A program made the position numbers and the translations under genes. Positions 2,435 to 9,648 of a DNA stretch of 26,251 nucleotides are shown piece by piece (within the stretch, counting starts at the first letter, position 1; each line of letters opens with the position of its first letter). A model generated the notes under the pieces. That model saw nothing but the letters and a program-made list of their open reading frames with translations, searched no databases and was not told the DNA's origin. Source of the stretch: a virus; the IMG/VR virus record IMGVR_UViG_3300047358_000462, positions 1-26,251 of that record; one strand, written 5' to 3'.

Positions 2435-3613
2435 ATGCAAATACCGGAGACAGAGCTGGGGACTGCAAATCCTCTATTCGTGGGTTCGATTCCCACCCGC
2501 GCCTCCATTTCTGTCAATAGTCGAATTAACCAAAATGAGGTAAATGCGTACAAAAAAAATATTGATGGGTTAGATCAATTATGCATAAGATATGGGTCAA
2601 TGAATATTCCGGTGACCATTACGGATCACGGAAAATATATATCCCTCGCTTTTGAATATAAGAATGAGTATTTCAAGCACCGATTATACAGCTCTATTTT
2701 CGAGACATCCTGCAAAGATATTTCTGATTTCGTTACAAAGAAATGCAACGAGATAGATGGTGCTGGTTCAATTTTAAATTTAATAAATGATTATTTAGAA
2801 TTTGGAACAGGTGCAGTCAGTACAAGAAAAAAGAATGTAGGTCACCTTAAAAACTACTGCAAACGAGATGGTATAGAGTTAGGTGAATCAATTACAAGGC
2901 TGGCTCAAGCCGATAACTTTAATAGAACTTTGCCGGAAAGATGGGCAGCTAAATGGAACTTGCCTCACAAGATGAGACAGGTGAGGTCTATCTTTAATCG
3001 CAAGAATATTGTATTGTATCGTTCTAGGGGCTGGGATACCGATCAGTTTAGGGATTTTATTTCTTTCATTCCTGAAACATGTGTATCCCAGCCCTTTTCT
3101 ACTGATGATGCAGAGGTGGATAGAATCATCAAATTTTTCAATGACCGGAAAGAATCACATCCTGTATTTTATGATATTTACACATTGGCATTCGGAGCAG
3201 GATTAAGAAAGTCAGAAATTTATCAAGTGCGTTACGAGCACTTTACAACTTTTAATGGACAGCATTTCTTGCAATTACCTTTTGCAACAAAGCGAACGAA
3301 ATTAAAACAATTAAATCATACTGAAAAGGTTGGTATCTCAAAGCAAACTTATGACCATTTTAAAAATCGATCTAGTGAAGGATTGGTAATAAATGGTGGT
3401 GAAAGATTGCATCGAAGATTTATCAAATTCTTGAAGAAAGATTTAGGTATCCTTGAAAACAAGGCATGCCATAGATTACGAAAAATTCTAGGAGCTAGAT
3501 TGGCATCTACAGCTGGCATATATCATGCAGCAAAGACTCTTAGAAATAGTGTAGCGGTTGCGGAAAAATACTATTCCGATCTTACAGCTCATAGAAATGA
3601 GTTAGAGACATAG
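2435..3613 (+). CDS. int: Tyrosine-family site-specific integrase
   Basis: The C-terminal catalytic domain shows the tyrosine recombinase signature: Arg258 in GAGLRKSE, Lys286 in ATKRTKL, His346-x-x-Arg349 in CHRLRK, and catalytic Tyr379/380 in EKYYSDL. The usual second His/Trp is replaced by Asn371 (LRNS). The middle region (about 110-195) fits a core-binding domain. The first ~25 residues (containing NPLFVGSIPTRAS) are a translation of the tRNA-Cys 3' end, so the annotated ATG at 2435 may not be the native start. It has no ribosome site, and the next in-frame ATG is at residue 56. The enzyme would recombine attP with the host tRNA-Cys gene. No excisionase is certain; small HTH proteins elsewhere are candidates. 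Confidence 0.9.
   Translation: MQIPETELGTANPLFVGSIPTRASISVNSRINQNEVNAYKKNIDGLDQLCIRYGSMNIPVTITDHGKYISLAFEYKNEYFKHRLYSSIFETSCKDISDFVTKKCNEIDGAGSILNLINDYLEFGTGAVSTRKKNVGHLKNYCKRDGIELGESITRLAQADNFNRTLPERWAAKWNLPHKMRQVRSIFNRKNIVLYRSRGWDTDQFRDFISFIPETCVSQPFSTDDAEVDRIIKFFNDRKESHPVFYDIYTLAFGAGLRKSEIYQVRYEHFTTFNGQHFLQLPFATKRTKLKQLNHTEKVGISKQTYDHFKNRSSEGLVINGGERLHRRFIKFLKKDLGILENKACHRLRKILGARLASTAGIYHAAKTLRNSVAVAEKYYSDLTAHRNELET
2458..2507 (+). other. attP: attP core: 3' half of a tRNA-Cys gene
   Basis: The stretch folds as the 3' half of a tRNA. The anticodon arm is GGGGA (2458-2462), CTGCAAA, TCCTC (2470-2474) with anticodon GCA at 2465-2467. The T-arm is GTGGG (2480-2484), TTCGATT, CCCAC (2492-2496). 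Then come the acceptor 3' strand CCGCGCC (2497-2503), T, and an encoded CCA (2505-2507). No matching D-arm or 5' acceptor strand is found upstream, so it is not a functional tRNA here. It is the typical phage attachment core that restores a host tRNA-Cys gene on integration, and it sits inside the open integrase frame. Confidence 0.88.
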
Positions 3614-3620
3614 AGTAGTT

Positions 3621-3809
3621 ATGGTACATATAAATCCAAAAAGCAGCCCTAACCTTGGTAAATCATCGTTAACTACTAAATCAATATCAGTTAACAATAT
3701 TACGCTAAAACAACAAAATAAAGAACTTACGATTACTACAAAAGGTAATTGGAAAGGTTCTTTAGAGGAACTACAGAGCTTGCTGAAGGATTTATATGGC
3801 AAGGATTAA
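3621..3809 (+). CDS. Hypothetical small protein (62 aa)
   Basis: The ORF starts seven bases after the integrase stop, with a weak GAGTAG ribosome site, and overlaps the next nuclease gene by 14 nt. The product is polar and Lys/Ser-rich at the N-terminus (INPKSSPNLGKSS) with a C-terminal amphipathic helix (SLEELQSLLKDLYGKD). Nothing identifies a function. Its place between the integrase and the recombination genes suggests an accessory early gene. Confidence 0.55.
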   Translation: MVHINPKSSPNLGKSSLTTKSISVNNITLKQQNKELTITTKGNWKGSLEELQSLLKDLYGKD

Positions 3810-4119
3810 TTCTCAAAAGAAAGGGGCGCGCTATGAGCGTGAAATTGCTGAGATTCTTCGGGGATATGGATACGAAGCAAAGCGAGGCTGCCAGCATGCC
3901 GGTGGATTCGACTCGCCCGATGTTGCCTGTGAAAAATTCCCCTGTCACATCGAAGCTAAATTTGTGCAGCGTTTAAACATCTGGGACGCATTCGAACAAT
4001 CAGCAAATGATGCACCACCAAATAAACCGGCATCAGTAATTCACCGGAAGAATCATAAGAACTTTTCACTAATAACTCTAAGACTATCTGACTTCTTAGA
4101 ATTAATCCCAAAACAATAA
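3796..4119 (+). CDS. Holliday-junction-resolvase-like PD-(D/E)XK nuclease
   Basis: The protein (107 aa) starts with a basic segment and the helix KKGARYEREIAEILRGYGY, whose Glu can be the first metal ligand. The nuclease core follows: Asp42 in FDSPDV and Glu-Ala-Lys in HIEAKF (about residues 52-55), a typical PD...(E)xK arrangement. This layout is shared by archaeal Hjc-type and phage resolvases that cut branched DNA. It lies upstream of ERF and the exonuclease, so it probably works in recombination or in resolving replication and packaging intermediates. One GTTTAAAC palindrome lies within it (3971-3978). RusA-type resolvase is excluded by the motifs; a general VRR-like nuclease is the main alternative. 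Confidence 0.72.
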   Translation: MARINSQKKGARYEREIAEILRGYGYEAKRGCQHAGGFDSPDVACEKFPCHIEAKFVQRLNIWDAFEQSANDAPPNKPASVIHRKNHKNFSLITLRLSDFLELIPKQ

Positions 4120-4128
4120 CTAACAAAA

Positions 4129-4881
4129 ATGAATGAAGACAATAACAGCATTCCTGAAATGGAATTTAATCACATTAATCAAGCTTTTGCTGAAGCTCAG
4201 AAAGAAATAAAAAATCCGAAAAAGAATCAGCAAGGATACGGATATAAATATGCCGGACTCGATCAGATTGAAGAAATGGCAAATAATATATTTCCTAAAT
4301 TTGGCTTATCACATCATCAGGATATCAGCTCAAAATTTCTAGACATTGGTCAGGTGATATATGTGCAGACAATTATCCGGCATAGCTCTGGGCAAAGAAT
4401 TACATCCAGTAAGCTACCAATGCTAGTAGAGCAGGGTAAAGGTACATCTAGTAATCAATCTGTAGGTGCATGTATTACTTACGCTCGCAGATATCAGCTA
4501 TCAGCATTTCTAGGCATTGCTGCTGAAGAAGATACCGATCTAGAAGGACAGCAAAGAAAGCAATTAGAAGAGGAGAGAAAGAAAGCAGCAGCAGATGTAA
4601 AAAAAGAAGCTGCAGGAATGAAGAAAAAAGCGGAAGCTGAAAAGGAAAAGAAACGAAAGGAATCAGCAGACAAAAAGCATAAGGCAACTTTGATTGATAG
4701 AGTTAAAGCTAGATTGATTGATACTGGAGCAACTGCATATGCCAAATCCAAGAATTTTGATCCTGATAAAGCATCATTGGCTCAGCTCGAAAATTTCATG
4801 GAATTTACTAATGAGCAGATAGCAGAGAAAGTGGATGCATGGGAAATGCAGGAAGCAGCAGAAGGGAGCTTAGTATCATGA
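4129..4881 (+). CDS. erf: ERF-family single-strand annealing protein
   Basis: The N-terminal ~140 residues match the ERF family of phage recombinases. They include the GYKYAGLDQI-like region (38-47) and the hallmark GACITYARRYQLSAFLGI (113-130) followed by the acidic EEDTD. The family anneals complementary single strands during phage recombination and circularisation. Residues ~140-195 are a long Lys/Glu/Ala coiled coil, and the C-terminal ~50 residues form a separate helical segment (LIDTGATAYAKSKNF). The gene starts after a 9-nt gap without an obvious ribosome site and ends in an ATGA overlap with the exonuclease gene, a sensible functional pair. Confidence 0.88.
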   Translation: MNEDNNSIPEMEFNHINQAFAEAQKEIKNPKKNQQGYGYKYAGLDQIEEMANNIFPKFGLSHHQDISSKFLDIGQVIYVQTIIRHSSGQRITSSKLPMLVEQGKGTSSNQSVGACITYARRYQLSAFLGIAAEEDTDLEGQQRKQLEEERKKAAADVKKEAAGMKKKAEAEKEKKRKESADKKHKATLIDRVKARLIDTGATAYAKSKNFDPDKASLAQLENFMEFTNEQIAEKVDAWEMQEAAEGSLVS

Positions 4882-5579
4882 GTGCAATCAGTTGTATCGT
4901 TGGTCACAATATTTTCGAATATGATTTGCCAATGCTCATCCAGTATTCTGATCGGCATGGAGTCAAAGTACCGGTTTACCTTCAACCGAATCGGGACAAG
5001 TTTCGAGGTTATCCACCGGTTTATCGAGATACCATGGAACTGCATGCTGCTGGTAAATTTAAAGATTTTCACAAGCTTGAAACTATTGCAAGAGCACTAG
5101 GTTTTGAAGGTGGTAAAAATGGCAAGTCAGGGAAAGATTTCTGGAAACTATCTCAAGATGAGCAGGAGCAATATTTGTCAAATGATTTACGAATGACATC
5201 ACATGTTTGGAAGAAAATAAATTACAGCAGAGAACTTTGTGATAGTGCTTTAATTTTCGACATTGAAACAAGACCAAGAGATGAAGAGAAAATTCGCCAC
5301 ATCATGCCGGACTTCAATGCAGATAATGTGAAGGTTGGTAATATAAAAGACCCTGACAAAATAGAGGCAAAGATAGAGGAAGCTAGGGAAAACCATTTCT
5401 ACAGCTTCTACGACAAAGCACAGCTTAAATCTGAGTATTCTGAACCATGTGCAATTGGCATCATTGATCCTGATGAAACTATATCTCTACATTTTGCAGA
5501 TAGTCCGGAGAGCATTGCCACTATGCTGAAAGTCTTTTGGGAAAAGTGCTCAAATGTTTGGGGCAACAATCAATACTAA
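4878..5579 (+). CDS. DEDDy 3'-5' exonuclease with circularly permuted motif order
   Basis: From ATG 4878 (ATGA overlap with erf) the 233-aa product begins almost at once with the ExoII motif GHNIFEYDLPML (Asp16). It continues through YRDTMELHAAGKF and LETIARALGF to ExoIII YLSND (Tyr99, Asp103). Only then comes ExoI, IFDIETRP (Asp128, Glu130), followed by the RHIMPDF, NIKDPDKIEAKIEEA and CAIGI segments that normally follow ExoI in this exonuclease family. The chain stops at VWGNNQY (227-233), which looks like the beginning of a second ExoII. In relatives I know the order is ExoI, ExoII, ExoIII. All four acidic residues are present, so activity is possible. An in-frame ATG at 4839 would add 13 residues but lacks support. 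Proofreading or end-trimming roles are inference. Confidence 0.75.
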   Translation: MSAISCIVGHNIFEYDLPMLIQYSDRHGVKVPVYLQPNRDKFRGYPPVYRDTMELHAAGKFKDFHKLETIARALGFEGGKNGKSGKDFWKLSQDEQEQYLSNDLRMTSHVWKKINYSRELCDSALIFDIETRPRDEEKIRHIMPDFNADNVKVGNIKDPDKIEAKIEEARENHFYSFYDKAQLKSEYSEPCAIGIIDPDETISLHFADSPESIATMLKVFWEKCSNVWGNNQY

Positions 5580-5591
5580 AAATTAGAATAT

Positions 5592-6020
5592 ATGAGAGCA
5601 ATAATTAAAGGGGTTTATTCATCAGATAAAGAAACCGGAAAAGACTATGTAACTCCGAAGGGAAATGCATTTATTAAATTGGCAGTAAAGTTAGAGAATG
5701 AAGATATTGTTTACGATGCGTTTTTCTTCACTAAGCCAGCTCATTGGAAAGTAGAGCAGTTTTTTGAAGCTGTAGGATTACCAGCTCCTACCTATAATGA
5801 AGTATCGTTTAAACACTTCATTAGTGCAAAAGAAAGAGAGGTTGAAGTGGAGCATGGTACTGACAAAAAAGGTTACCCTAAGATTTACAAATATAATAAA
5901 GTTGTAGTCATTCCTGAAGAACCTACAGCTGAACCTACCGATGAAATTTCCGGTCAAAGTTCAAGTGATCCTACTGATCCAGAACTTGATGAGGAGCTAG
6001 GTGAAGATGTCCCATTCTAA
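5592..6020 (+). CDS. SSB-like single-stranded DNA-binding protein
   Basis: The 142-aa product has a beta-rich N-terminal ~105 residues (MRAIIKGVYSS, AFIKLAVKLENEDIVYDAFF, EREVEVEHGTDKKGYPKIYKYNKVVVI) compatible with an OB fold. It then has a disordered acidic tail ending EELGEDVPF. An acidic tail with a terminal Pro-Phe is the hallmark of bacterial SSBs (DDDIPF type), which use it to recruit partner proteins. Its position among exonuclease, annealing protein and replication initiator supports a ssDNA-binding role. Sequence similarity to classical SSB is not evident by eye, so it may belong to one of the divergent phage SSB families. Confidence 0.72.
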   Translation: MRAIIKGVYSSDKETGKDYVTPKGNAFIKLAVKLENEDIVYDAFFFTKPAHWKVEQFFEAVGLPAPTYNEVSFKHFISAKEREVEVEHGTDKKGYPKIYKYNKVVVIPEEPTAEPTDEISGQSSSDPTDPELDEELGEDVPF

Positions 6021-6654
6021 TCGGTTGACTATCAGGATACCTGATCATTTGAAGCAGCAACTTGACATGGTTTCAGTCAAATATGACATGACTATTAATG
6101 ATGTAATTAAGTTCAGCATCATAAATGGGATCAATATATTCGATATTTCACCTGTTCAATTTGACAGCAAAAACCCACTAAATGGGGCAGTTTTGACAGC
6201 AAGTGCATTAGTAGAGAAAAAACAGGGTGACAGCAAAAACCCCCTAAAATCGACAAATTTGACAGCAACTGATGATTTAGATGTGCAGAAGGTGAATGTT
6301 CCATTTGACAGCAAAAATGCCGAAAAACCAGCAAATTTGACAGCAGCCTCGCGCGCACCTAATAGAGATATATACTTACTTAATAAGAAAGATATAGTTA
6401 TATATAATACTAAGTTGCAATTTGCTTGGGAAGAATTTGTTCAGCATCGAAAAGAACTCAGGAAGTCAATCAAACCAACTCAGCTAAAAAGGATGTGGAG
6501 TGGTTTCGATGAGATTATTTCAAAATTTGGAGTCGATACTCTAATTGGGTGTTTAAACAAGAGTGTCGAAATGGGATGGGCTGGAGTTTTTGCACCACCA
6601 GAACAAATCAATCAAGTTAGTTCAAAACATGTGTTTACGGAGAATGACTTATGA
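6007..6654 (+). CDS. Replication initiator (lambda O-like) with RHH-like N-terminus and internal iterons
   Basis: From ATG 6007 (GAGGAG at 5991-5996; a GTG at 6001 is an alternative) the product is 215 aa. Residues ~5-45 (NRLTIRIPDHLKQQL... then DVIKFSIINGI) look like a ribbon-helix-helix DNA-binding domain. The middle carries three copies of a DSKN...LTA repeat that is simply the translation of DNA iterons. The C-terminal part (FAWEEFVQHRKELRKSIKPT... to VEMGWAGVFAPPEQ) resembles the C-terminal domain of phage replication proteins that contact the helicase or its loader. The next gene is a DnaC-like loader, so the pair mirrors lambda O-P: the protein binds the iterons within its own gene and recruits host helicase. 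This role is inferred from architecture and context. Confidence 0.7.
   Translation: MSHSNRLTIRIPDHLKQQLDMVSVKYDMTINDVIKFSIINGINIFDISPVQFDSKNPLNGAVLTASALVEKKQGDSKNPLKSTNLTATDDLDVQKVNVPFDSKNAEKPANLTAASRAPNRDIYLLNKKDIVIYNTKLQFAWEEFVQHRKELRKSIKPTQLKRMWSGFDEIISKFGVDTLIGCLNKSVEMGWAGVFAPPEQINQVSSKHVFTENDL
6160..6346 (+). repeat. ori: Array of six TTTGACAGCAA iterons (likely replication origin)
   Basis: Direct repeats of TTTGACAGCAA occur at 6160-6170, 6192-6202, 6226-6236 (GG in place of the first TT), 6258-6268, 6304-6314 and 6336-6346 (last A is G). Start-to-start distances are 32, 34, 32, 46 and 32 bp, mostly three helical turns, and the copies pair up. The odd copies read as Asp-Ser-Lys and the even ones as Leu-Thr-Ala, in different codon phases. 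Conservation is therefore at the DNA level. Confidence 0.8.
6361..6416. other. A/T-rich tract beside the iterons (candidate DNA unwinding element)
   Basis: Directly after the last iteron comes a stretch that is about four-fifths A/T and contains GATATATAC, GATATAG and TTATATATAATAC. It still encodes part of the initiator, in its linker. The iterons-then-A/T order inside an initiator gene is the same as in the lambda origin, where the A/T tract melts. Function is inferred. Confidence 0.6.
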
Positions 6655-8346: not shown

Positions 8347-8658
8347 ATGAAGCTACGGAATCAAATGGTATTTAAAACGCAAGAATCAAGGGGTATGGTA
8401 ACACAGCAAAGGCATAATCCGGTTGGCAGGGTAATGTCGGAAGTGATGTCGGGCATATATAAGGCATTAAAGGCATGCAAAGCGTACACTTTATCACCGG
8501 TTTGCTCCAGAACCCTGTCTTTATGCGGTAGTACAGAGGATTCTTTGTCCTCTACTACAGGCAAAAAGAGGGTCGGGGGGGTCGGGGGGTGCTTCGTCTT
8601 TTTTTTCCAGACCGGTTATGCCATAGAAAATTTTTTTATTTATGGGCAAAGGCTTTAA
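8347..8658 (+). CDS. Doubtful ORF across the G-rich interval (103 aa)
   Basis: GAGGG at 8338-8342 lies four bases before ATG 8347, and the frame stays open for 103 codons, so it could be translated. However, the second half reads through a long hairpin, a G-run and a T-run to give KKRVGGVGGCFVFFFQTG. The 3' end also overlaps the next gene start at 8642. Apart from this ORF, the stretch 8310-8641 has no gene. It may be a real small protein whose sequence carries DNA or RNA structure, or an intergenic regulatory region that is open by chance. I lean slightly towards the latter. Confidence 0.33.
   Translation: MKLRNQMVFKTQESRGMVTQQRHNPVGRVMSEVMSGIYKALKACKAYTLSPVCSRTLSLCGSTEDSLSSTTGKKRVGGVGGCFVFFFQTGYAIENFFIYGQRL
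8528..8558 (+). other. Long hairpin (11-bp stem)
   Basis: GTAGTA (8528-8533) pairs with TACTAC (8553-8558), and GAGGA (8536-8540) with TCCTC (8548-8552). A 2-nt bulge (CA) and a 7-nt loop TTCTTTG complete it. CCTGT at about 8513-8517 could extend it with ACAGG at 8557-8561. No T-run directly follows, so it is not a canonical terminator; it may be an RNA structure upstream of the nuclease gene. Confidence 0.6.
8570..8606 (+). other. G-quadruplex-capable G-runs followed by T8
   Basis: GGG (8570-8572), TC, seven G (8575-8581), TC, six G (8584-8589) satisfies a four-run G3 quadruplex pattern, a striking sequence in A+T-rich phage DNA. Eight T follow at 8599-8606. It sits between the hairpin and the next gene. 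Function unknown; transcription pausing is one possibility. Confidence 0.55.
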
Positions 8659-9082
8659 TAGTGATCTTACAGCTGGAGAGGACAGCGAAGCAAGGCTAAT
8701 GAACATGGTCAGGTCATTAGGTAAGACTCCCATGAAACCGGTAGGTCGATTCCCATATTATGATTTTTTTGTTTGTGAGACAAAGAAGGCATATGAGGTA
8801 AAAAGAGACTGGAAGTCAGCTCATACCGGTAATGTGGTTGTAGAGGTAGAAATGCCGATTGGTACACCTAGTGGCTTATTGACCAGTATAGCAGATTGGT
8901 GGATTTTTGATTTACCGGATGAGTTTGTATTTATTGATCCGAAACAGATCAGGAAGTTAATCCTGCAGGAAGATTTACGGAGTTGTAGGTTTGTCGGGGA
9001 TGGTGATGTGACAGAGAAGCGAGCGTATTTGGTCAAGGTGGATTTGTTAAAAAAGTATGCAGAAAGTGTGAAAGAAAAATGA
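8642..9082 (+). CDS. PD-(D/E)XK-type nuclease, phage family
   Basis: The 146-aa product has an early acidic helix (GEDSEARLMNMVRSLG). Then come YYDF (Asp41) and, after one strand, YEVKRD, giving the PD...ExK metal-binding pattern of the PD-(D/E)XK fold. A later GLLTSIADWWIFDLPDEFVFID segment is typical of phage members of this group that recognise ends or branches. The start ATG 8642 has no ribosome site. It overlaps the downstream regulator by ATGA. It could be a second resolvase or a packaging or recombination nuclease. The fold assignment is fair, the substrate is unknown. Confidence 0.6.
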   Translation: MGKGFNSDLTAGEDSEARLMNMVRSLGKTPMKPVGRFPYYDFFVCETKKAYEVKRDWKSAHTGNVVVEVEMPIGTPSGLLTSIADWWIFDLPDEFVFIDPKQIRKLILQEDLRSCRFVGDGDVTEKRAYLVKVDLLKKYAESVKEK

Positions 9083-9648
9083 CATTTGATGATTTTGATT
9101 ATTTAGAATCTATACTGAATCATTTACCGAAGTGTGAGCGAAAGATTTTAGAGTTGTATTATATACAGGGTTACACACAGGCAGAGGTTGGTAAGAAATA
9201 CAATTTAAGTGGTGGAGCAATTTTCCAATACTTGAAGCGGTTGTTAATGACCTGTTATAGCATTGCCAGTAAATTAGATAAGGGGATACCTGTAATTATT
9301 GAGCCTACCTTTGGTCACAAGAGTAGATTGTATGAGGGTAAGGGAAGTGAAACACAGGTTAAAATTAAGAAGTCGATTAAGTCTCATGCGAGAAGGGATC
9401 GTTCTGAATTTAATAGAAAGCTTGCAGCTAGGCTGGCAAAGCAAAGATTTGATAAATGGGGATATGGTAGTGGGTCAATAAGAGATGGTAAGCACCGGAA
9501 TGGTGGAGGGTATATTAATGGAATATATCGAAGAAGTTTGAAAGGTTGGAAAGTTGTCGAATTGAGAGATAAGGAAGGGTATCGGTACGCAGCTTGGATG
9601 AATCCACAAGGGGAAGTAGAGCATGCAGAAAGGAGGCGTTTGCCATGA
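9079..9648 (+). CDS. Sigma-70 region 4-like DNA-binding protein, possible late-gene regulator
   Basis: Residues ~6-60 (YLESILNHLPKCERKILELY, then YIQGYTQAEVGKKYNLS, then GGAIFQYLKRLL) have the helix-turn-helix pattern of sigma factor region 4. The Lys-Arg-rich remainder (KIKKSIKSHARRDRSEF, KLAARLAKQRFDKWG) and a Gly-rich segment have no recognised family. No region 2 is present, so it is not a complete sigma factor. Phage proteins with this HTH can act as late transcription activators or as packaging-related DNA binders. It stands between early and late genes, which fits a switch role, but this is inference. Both gene junctions are ATGA overlaps. Confidence 0.6.
   Translation: MTFDDFDYLESILNHLPKCERKILELYYIQGYTQAEVGKKYNLSGGAIFQYLKRLLMTCYSIASKLDKGIPVIIEPTFGHKSRLYEGKGSETQVKIKKSIKSHARRDRSEFNRKLAARLAKQRFDKWGYGSGSIRDGKHRNGGGYINGIYRRSLKGWKVVELRDKEGYRYAAWMNPQGEVEHAERRRLP

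Follow-up and report, generated by a model that had tools for sequence, protein, structure and literature searches.

The motif order ExoI-ExoII-ExoIII is what defines exonucleases of the DEDD type, which include proofreading domains, DnaQ and RNases D and T among others, and it is also the basis of their detection. The window analysed here, a stretch of 26,251 nucleotides (positions 1 to 26,251 of the virus record IMGVR_UViG_3300047358_000462), contains a gene whose product has the homology of a canonical-type exonuclease domain over its whole length, yet presents its motifs in the order ExoII-ExoIII-ExoI. The locus thus raises the question of whether a complete catalytic domain has been rewired in nature and, if so, what the enzyme does. 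The explanation that accounts best for the observations, with a probability of about 0.9 as a whole, is that its product is a stand-alone DEDDy 3'-5' exonuclease of the PolB type that was circularly permuted in nature and that probably works as the partner of an Erf- or Sak-type annealing protein.

The open reading frame and its motifs

The open reading frame, including the stop codon, occupies positions 4878..5579 of the + strand, on which the segments of the gene and the three neighbouring genes of its module described below also lie, and encodes 233 amino acids (4878-5576). The reading frame, its PF10108 match and a two-part profile match together define the product as a predicted permuted DEDDy (PolB/PF10108-like) 3'-5' exonuclease. 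A second in-frame ATG is present at 4839. The codon at 4878 is the likely start by sequence comparison, because the homologues all begin 2-7 residues ahead of the ExoII strand and because this ATG shares the tetranucleotide ATGA with the stop codon of the upstream erf gene. In the AlphaFold2 model, the ExoII strand comes directly after the start codon.

The ExoII motif GHNIFEYD (residues 9-16; 4902..4925) is assigned to the first strand (5-9) and carries the catalytic residue D16. The ExoIII motif YLSND (residues 99-103; 5172..5186) provides the catalytic residues Y99 and D103 from the helix of residues 93-118, and the ExoI motif FDIET (residues 127-131; 5256..5270) provides D128 and E130 from the strand of residues 123-133. 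A reading of the letters alone (the sequence-only reading) had placed the three motifs in one frame at these same residues and had stated that the four acidic ligands are kept. Both statements hold. Across the 14 full-length permuted sequences, D128 and E130 (the ExoI D-x-E pair of metal ligands), D16, and Y99 and D103 (the ExoIII Y-x3-D pair, with the 'y' of DEDDy) are present in 14/14, and N11 is present in 13/14, which gives the N-x(3-4)-D context of ExoII.

Searches in which the sequence is read in its own order detect only part of the protein. Pfam assigns PF10108 (PolB-related 3'-5' exonuclease) to residues 7-103 only, with 26.1 bits against a cut-off of 24. A PHROGs family annotated as 'DNA polymerase exonuclease subunit' matches only the first half, and a phmmer search of the PDB with the window protein gave no credible match.

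Complete rotation of the canonical domain

A canonical profile was built from 24 relatives with the ExoI-ExoII-ExoIII order. Residues 4-114 of the window protein (4887..5219; the ExoII-ExoIII segment) match profile positions 104-212, the canonical C-terminal half, with 76.3 bits (E 1.3e-22, Z=1000). Residues 125-229 (5250..5564; the ExoI segment), which contain the VKVGNIKDP signature, match profile positions 4-102, the canonical N-terminal half, with 86.2 bits (E 1.2e-25, Z=1000). Each match is significant singly, and the two occur in reversed order without overlap. When the halves are swapped back into the canonical order, they merge into a single match to model positions 4-212 with 172 bits. 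The rotated two-part match was obtained for 8/8 full-length permuted proteins tested, and canonical proteins that were rotated artificially gave the mirror-image result. In an independent profile-profile alignment by hhalign, window residues 123-227 correspond to canonical residues 2-103 (probability 99.9, E 3e-33).

Because each half alone matches the profile of the canonical relatives, the motifs GHNIFEYD, YLSND and FDIET are, by profile comparison, not a product of chance, and aligning the halves separately, a check proposed with the sequence-only reading, favours the permutation. In these alignments, the entire canonical domain is shown to be kept in rotated form, with nothing lost and no clear duplication. 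The new termini stem from a break in the loop that separates helix A from the ExoII strand, and approximately four residues now connect the ExoIII helix, with which the ancestral chain ended, to the ExoI strand, with which it began. The linker is assigned to residues 119-122 (5232..5243) from the DSSP elements of the model and the motif spacings; the distance between the ExoIII and ExoI aspartates is 25 or 27 residues in every permuted protein.

Predicted structure of the permuted protein

The permuted protein was modelled by AlphaFold2 from an alignment of permuted sequences only, with a pLDDT of 87.3 and a pTM of 0.83. The first part of the model consists of a strand (residues 5-9), a helix (12-26), a short strand (49-51) and four helices (52-56, 67-73, 85-90 and 93-118). 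The second part contains a strand (123-133), three helices (136-142, 159-171 and 173-183), two strands (188-196 and 202-206) and a last helix (210-232). The model of a canonical relative, L059 (pLDDT 94.6, pTM 0.88), begins with a strand (3-12), two helices (15-21 and 38-60), two strands (67-76 and 81-84) and a helix (89-102), and continues with a strand (106-109), a helix (112-127), a strand (144-146) and four helices (147-152, 162-168, 178-187 and 189-210). The two lists are rotations of each other, except that one long helix is given as two in the permuted model.

In structure searches with Foldseek, the canonical model gave 129 PDB matches at E <= 0.001, and its top matches are all exonuclease domains of PolB polymerases over nearly the full length. 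The permuted model gave no PDB match at E <= 0.001, only half-length matches with poor E-values, among them RICE1 and the exonuclease of T4 polymerase (5v5f and 1noy). This contrast between full-length and half-length matches is expected of a permutant because Foldseek aligns in chain order. The permuted chain is therefore predicted to close up as the canonical enzyme does, in an RNase H-like fold whose elements follow a rotated order, and D128/E130, D16 and Y99/D103 would meet in one two-metal active site. The expectation that the fold could still close is borne out at the level of prediction.

Relatives, descent and selection

Exact-peptide scans of viral contigs with the window protein found no relatives, and a tblastn search of isolate phages gave weak half-length matches only. 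A degenerate DNA pattern for VKxGNxKDP recovered 61 family open reading frames from viral contigs, and profile-guided scans then supplied further viral and bacterial-genome loci. A pair of half-profiles, covering the ExoI half (I) and the ExoII-ExoIII half (II), served to score the six-frame open reading frames. The first 152 sources yielded 121 open reading frames of the order I-II versus 22 of the order II-I; these 22 belong to 12 contigs, duplicates included, and later scans added four permuted contigs. After de-duplication, the permuted order is found in 16 contigs, namely the window and 15 IMG/VR contigs from 13 metagenomes, whose proteins are 40-48% identical to the window protein. The same-order relatives for which the sequence-only reading had suggested a search are thus at hand, and they share its break point and neighbours with the window gene. 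In the collections searched, the permuted form is absent from isolate phages and reference bacterial genomes, and genomes hold canonical members only.

Several candidates were rejected. Three proteins scored as I-I-II (L116, L118 and L122) and considered as tandem intermediates are single canonical domains that an insertion has interrupted. Vibrio phage matches that overlap Rad52/Erf genes are canonical proteins whose C-terminal half touches the downstream annealing gene, and the matches in MT835614 and P-RSP2, over residues 13-140 and 7-132, have no half-profile match.

Two observations concern individual loci. The 43.4-kb contig IMGVR_UViG_3300020601_000023 (L163/L020) has both ends inside the permuted exonuclease gene, and the overlap of these ends points to a complete genome that is either circular or terminally redundant. 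Genome bins of Verrucomicrobia (L134-L147) often contain canonical VKxGNxKDP exonucleases, mostly with a resolvase-like gene approximately 1 kb upstream, which may be part of a prophage or mobile module of this phylum.

In phylogenies of the de-rotated sequences, the permuted proteins group in a single clade, with an SH-aLRT support of 98 under a mixture model and 100/99 in the careful tree. A single permutation event would therefore suffice for all of them. The tree is unrooted, and the direction from canonical to permuted rests on the generality of the I-II-III order. For close permuted pairs, dN/dS is 0.06-0.21 (Nei-Gojobori, own script), with a high dS in several pairs; by this measure, the family is under purifying selection and has been retained through deep divergence. 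These comparisons show that the arrangement arose, as far as sequences record it, within a single lineage of recombination modules of temperate phages.

The C-terminal tail and the route of origin

Among the routes known for circular permutations, the simplest is a gene duplication after which the outer halves are lost. The sequence-only reading had regarded the C-terminal tail VWGNNQY (5556..5576) as half of another ExoII motif, in which a tandem duplication would still be visible. By eye, tails such as SNVWGNN, GSVWGHD and GNIWGHW resemble V-x-G-H-N, and V-[WFH]-G-[NH] is found again in several permuted tails. When scored with a matrix of the canonical ExoII strand, however, the tails stay within the range of shuffled sequences (p 0.06 for the window protein and 0.08-0.63 for its relatives). 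The profile alignments end at or before the tail, which belongs to the predicted helix of residues 210-232, where confidence is low at the end. VWGNNQY is thus best read, in the model, as the end of a helix, and this part of the earlier interpretation is not upheld: a duplication, if it occurred, has left no detectable trace at the C-terminus.

It is accordingly rather doubtful that the protein arose by tandem duplication and trimming that can still be seen as a C-terminal ExoII half-motif, as opposed to fission and re-fusion or another route. The recurrent tail pattern and the textbook status of duplication speak for such an origin, but the shuffle-level scores, the predicted helices and the extent of the profiles do not, and neither a tandem copy in one open reading frame nor split intermediates were found among the six-frame open reading frames scored. 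Duplication with loss of the outer halves is plausible and unproven as the origin of the permutation itself.

Genomic context and inferred function

The exonuclease gene is directly preceded by a gene for an Erf-type single-strand annealing protein (4129..4881; PF04404, E 3.8e-28; phrog_2324) and directly followed by a gene for an SSB-like acidic-tailed protein (5592..6020), which has only a weak match to phrog_2698. The same module contains a gene for a Holliday-junction-resolvase-like nuclease (3796..4119; phrog_244, E 3e-16; weak Hjc/PDDEXK matches). The permuted loci share the gene order Int-Hjr-ERF-EXO-SSB-O-DnaC wherever their sequence extends. The SSB-like protein is immediately downstream in all of them, and ERF is upstream in every locus with upstream sequence except L009/L072, which have Sak (PF06378). 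Translation of the exonuclease is coupled to that of the annealing protein, also where the latter changes type. In L072, the Sak-type protein (2869-3394) stands in place of Erf and the neighbouring genes are unchanged.

Canonical cousins in Vibrio phages also adjoin Erf/Rad52 and SSB. Erf was found within 1.5 kb in only 12/58 non-redundant canonical loci, a count restricted to Erf among the types of single-strand annealing protein (SSAP), and the SSAP link is thus strong for the permuted clade and not general for the whole family. In phage C75C1, which has the nearest terminase, the replication/recombination region with Erf and SSB carries a PD-(D/E)XK exonuclease instead, approximately 2 kb away.

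Judged by its gene content, with an integrase gene and a lambda-like replication module, the source phage is temperate. The integrase open reading frame starts inside a sequence (window 2440-2508) that resembles the 3' portion of a tRNA-Cys with a GCA anticodon, ending ...GCGCCTCCA. ARAGORN reports no complete tRNA at this position, and the tRNA-Cys-like 3' part is probably the attP core. Three imperfect 49-nt direct repeats (TTTGACAGCAAAAACCC...TTTGACAGCA; window 6153-6345), spaced 66 and 78 nt, lie within the O-like replication gene and are likely iterons of the phage origin. A 146-aa open reading frame without a Pfam match (8642-9082) stands just before a sigma-70 region-4-like gene (9079-9648), and related open reading frames recur in some permuted loci.

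In this context, the permuted enzyme is most likely the 3'-5' exonuclease partner of the adjacent annealing protein, because the coupling survives the replacement of Erf by Sak, because the Vibrio cousins have similar neighbours and because C75C1 has a substitute exonuclease. The 3'-5' polarity is predicted from the DEDDy class. The exonuclease would resect or trim 3' ends, Erf would then anneal the resulting strands, and the resolvase-like protein would complete recombination.

Alternative explanations

A permutation would be refuted by an assembly or binning artefact in which two fragments of a canonical gene, unrelated or broken circularly, had been put together. The permuted sequences stem without exception from assembled metagenomes, none occurs in the isolates searched, and contig 3300020601_000023 terminates inside the permuted gene. 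Nevertheless, 15 further contigs from 13 metagenomes, divergent from the window protein, share its break and flanks, and an artefact has a negligible chance of being the explanation. A decaying or catalytically dead relic is also highly improbable. The ExoII region has diverged to GHMSNKYD in L063 and Pfam barely detects the family, but the invariance of the five catalytic residues, the absence of stop codons, the low dN/dS and the deep divergence within the clade argue for a maintained gene.

The other two alternatives accept a real permutation and concern how it works. The protein might be functional solely through domain swapping in a dimer, where the ExoI part of each subunit would complete the active site of its partner. 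A joining linker as short as that observed can favour swapping, and a swapped dimer is compatible with a monomer prediction, but no element of the canonical fold is missing from the confident monomer model, and the swapped arrangement is improbable. The enzyme could instead proofread or trim 3' ends for the host replicase, independently of recombination with the annealing protein. Its nearest folds are PolB proofreading domains, Pfam assigns it to a PolB-related family, and the phage has DnaC- and O-like genes with no polymerase seen within the window. Against this role stand the tight translational coupling to Erf, which is preserved when Erf is swapped for Sak, and the PD-(D/E)XK exonuclease that takes the place of the DEDDy enzyme in the Erf/SSB region of C75C1; a proofreading role is unlikely. 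The reading of the gene as a circular permutant, first proposed from the ExoII-ExoIII-ExoI order, is supported by the rotated profile matches, the relatives, the clade and the models.

Discussion

The closest known systems are stand-alone canonical PolB-like exonucleases of phages and bacteria (PF10108-like; L059, L089 and L139-L147 of Verrucomicrobia). They are homologous to the window protein over the whole domain once it is de-rotated (172 bits) and have the same catalytic residues and VKxGNxKDP segment, and some adjoin erf. They differ in the order ExoI-II-III and in their ends, which lie at the ExoI strand and the ExoIII helix, whereas the window family starts at the ExoII strand and terminates within helix A. 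The exonuclease domains of PolB polymerases (archaeal PolB, Pol epsilon and T4/RB69) share the fold and the DEDDy site with the canonical relative but are parts of polymerases and, unlike the window protein, have the canonical order. In lambda Exo/Bet and RecE/RecT, an exonuclease gene adjoins the gene for an annealing protein, as in the window module. The exonucleases of these systems act with 5'-3' polarity and belong to the PD-(D/E)XK or lambda-exonuclease type; the window exonuclease, in contrast, is a DEDDy enzyme of the RNase H fold with a predicted 3'-5' and thus opposite polarity.

The window family carries the DEDDy residues in an order other than ExoI-ExoII-ExoIII and, on that account, is classed by its sequences as a permuted offshoot of the DEDDy group and not as an ordinary member. 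The DAM methylases of jumbo phages (PMC7824862) are a described case of phage enzymes whose catalytic domain is circularly permuted in nature; their fold and chemistry are unrelated to those of the window exonuclease. No report of a permuted DEDD, DnaQ or RNase H-fold exonuclease was found in open-licence PMC full texts, in agreement with the sequence-only reading, which knew of no permuted member with this break point, and the part of the 2014 superfamily survey (PMC3985635) considered here contains no word beginning with 'permut'. Permutation in phage enzymes is therefore already known, and a permuted DEDDy offshoot appears to be new among open-licence papers. A more far-reaching proposal is offered tentatively, at somewhat less than even odds: that this is the first DEDD (DnaQ/PolB) exonuclease core to be found circularly permuted in nature, that the change was fixed once, and that the enzyme is active as the 3'-5' partner of Erf/Sak. 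In this proposal, the new termini at the ExoII strand may have been kept since a surface on which the annealing protein docks is thereby freed or created.

The break point is an evolution-tested site for engineering permuted proofreading domains. The finding also exposes a blind spot, and other permuted nucleases may hide among phage hypotheticals because sequence-ordered searches (Pfam and Foldseek) see half of such permutants or miss them. An inherited family breaks the ExoI-II-III order with every ligand retained. The RNase H-like catalytic core tolerates natural rewiring with new ends beside the ExoII strand, and canonical sister sequences are available for testing how this rewiring is tolerated.
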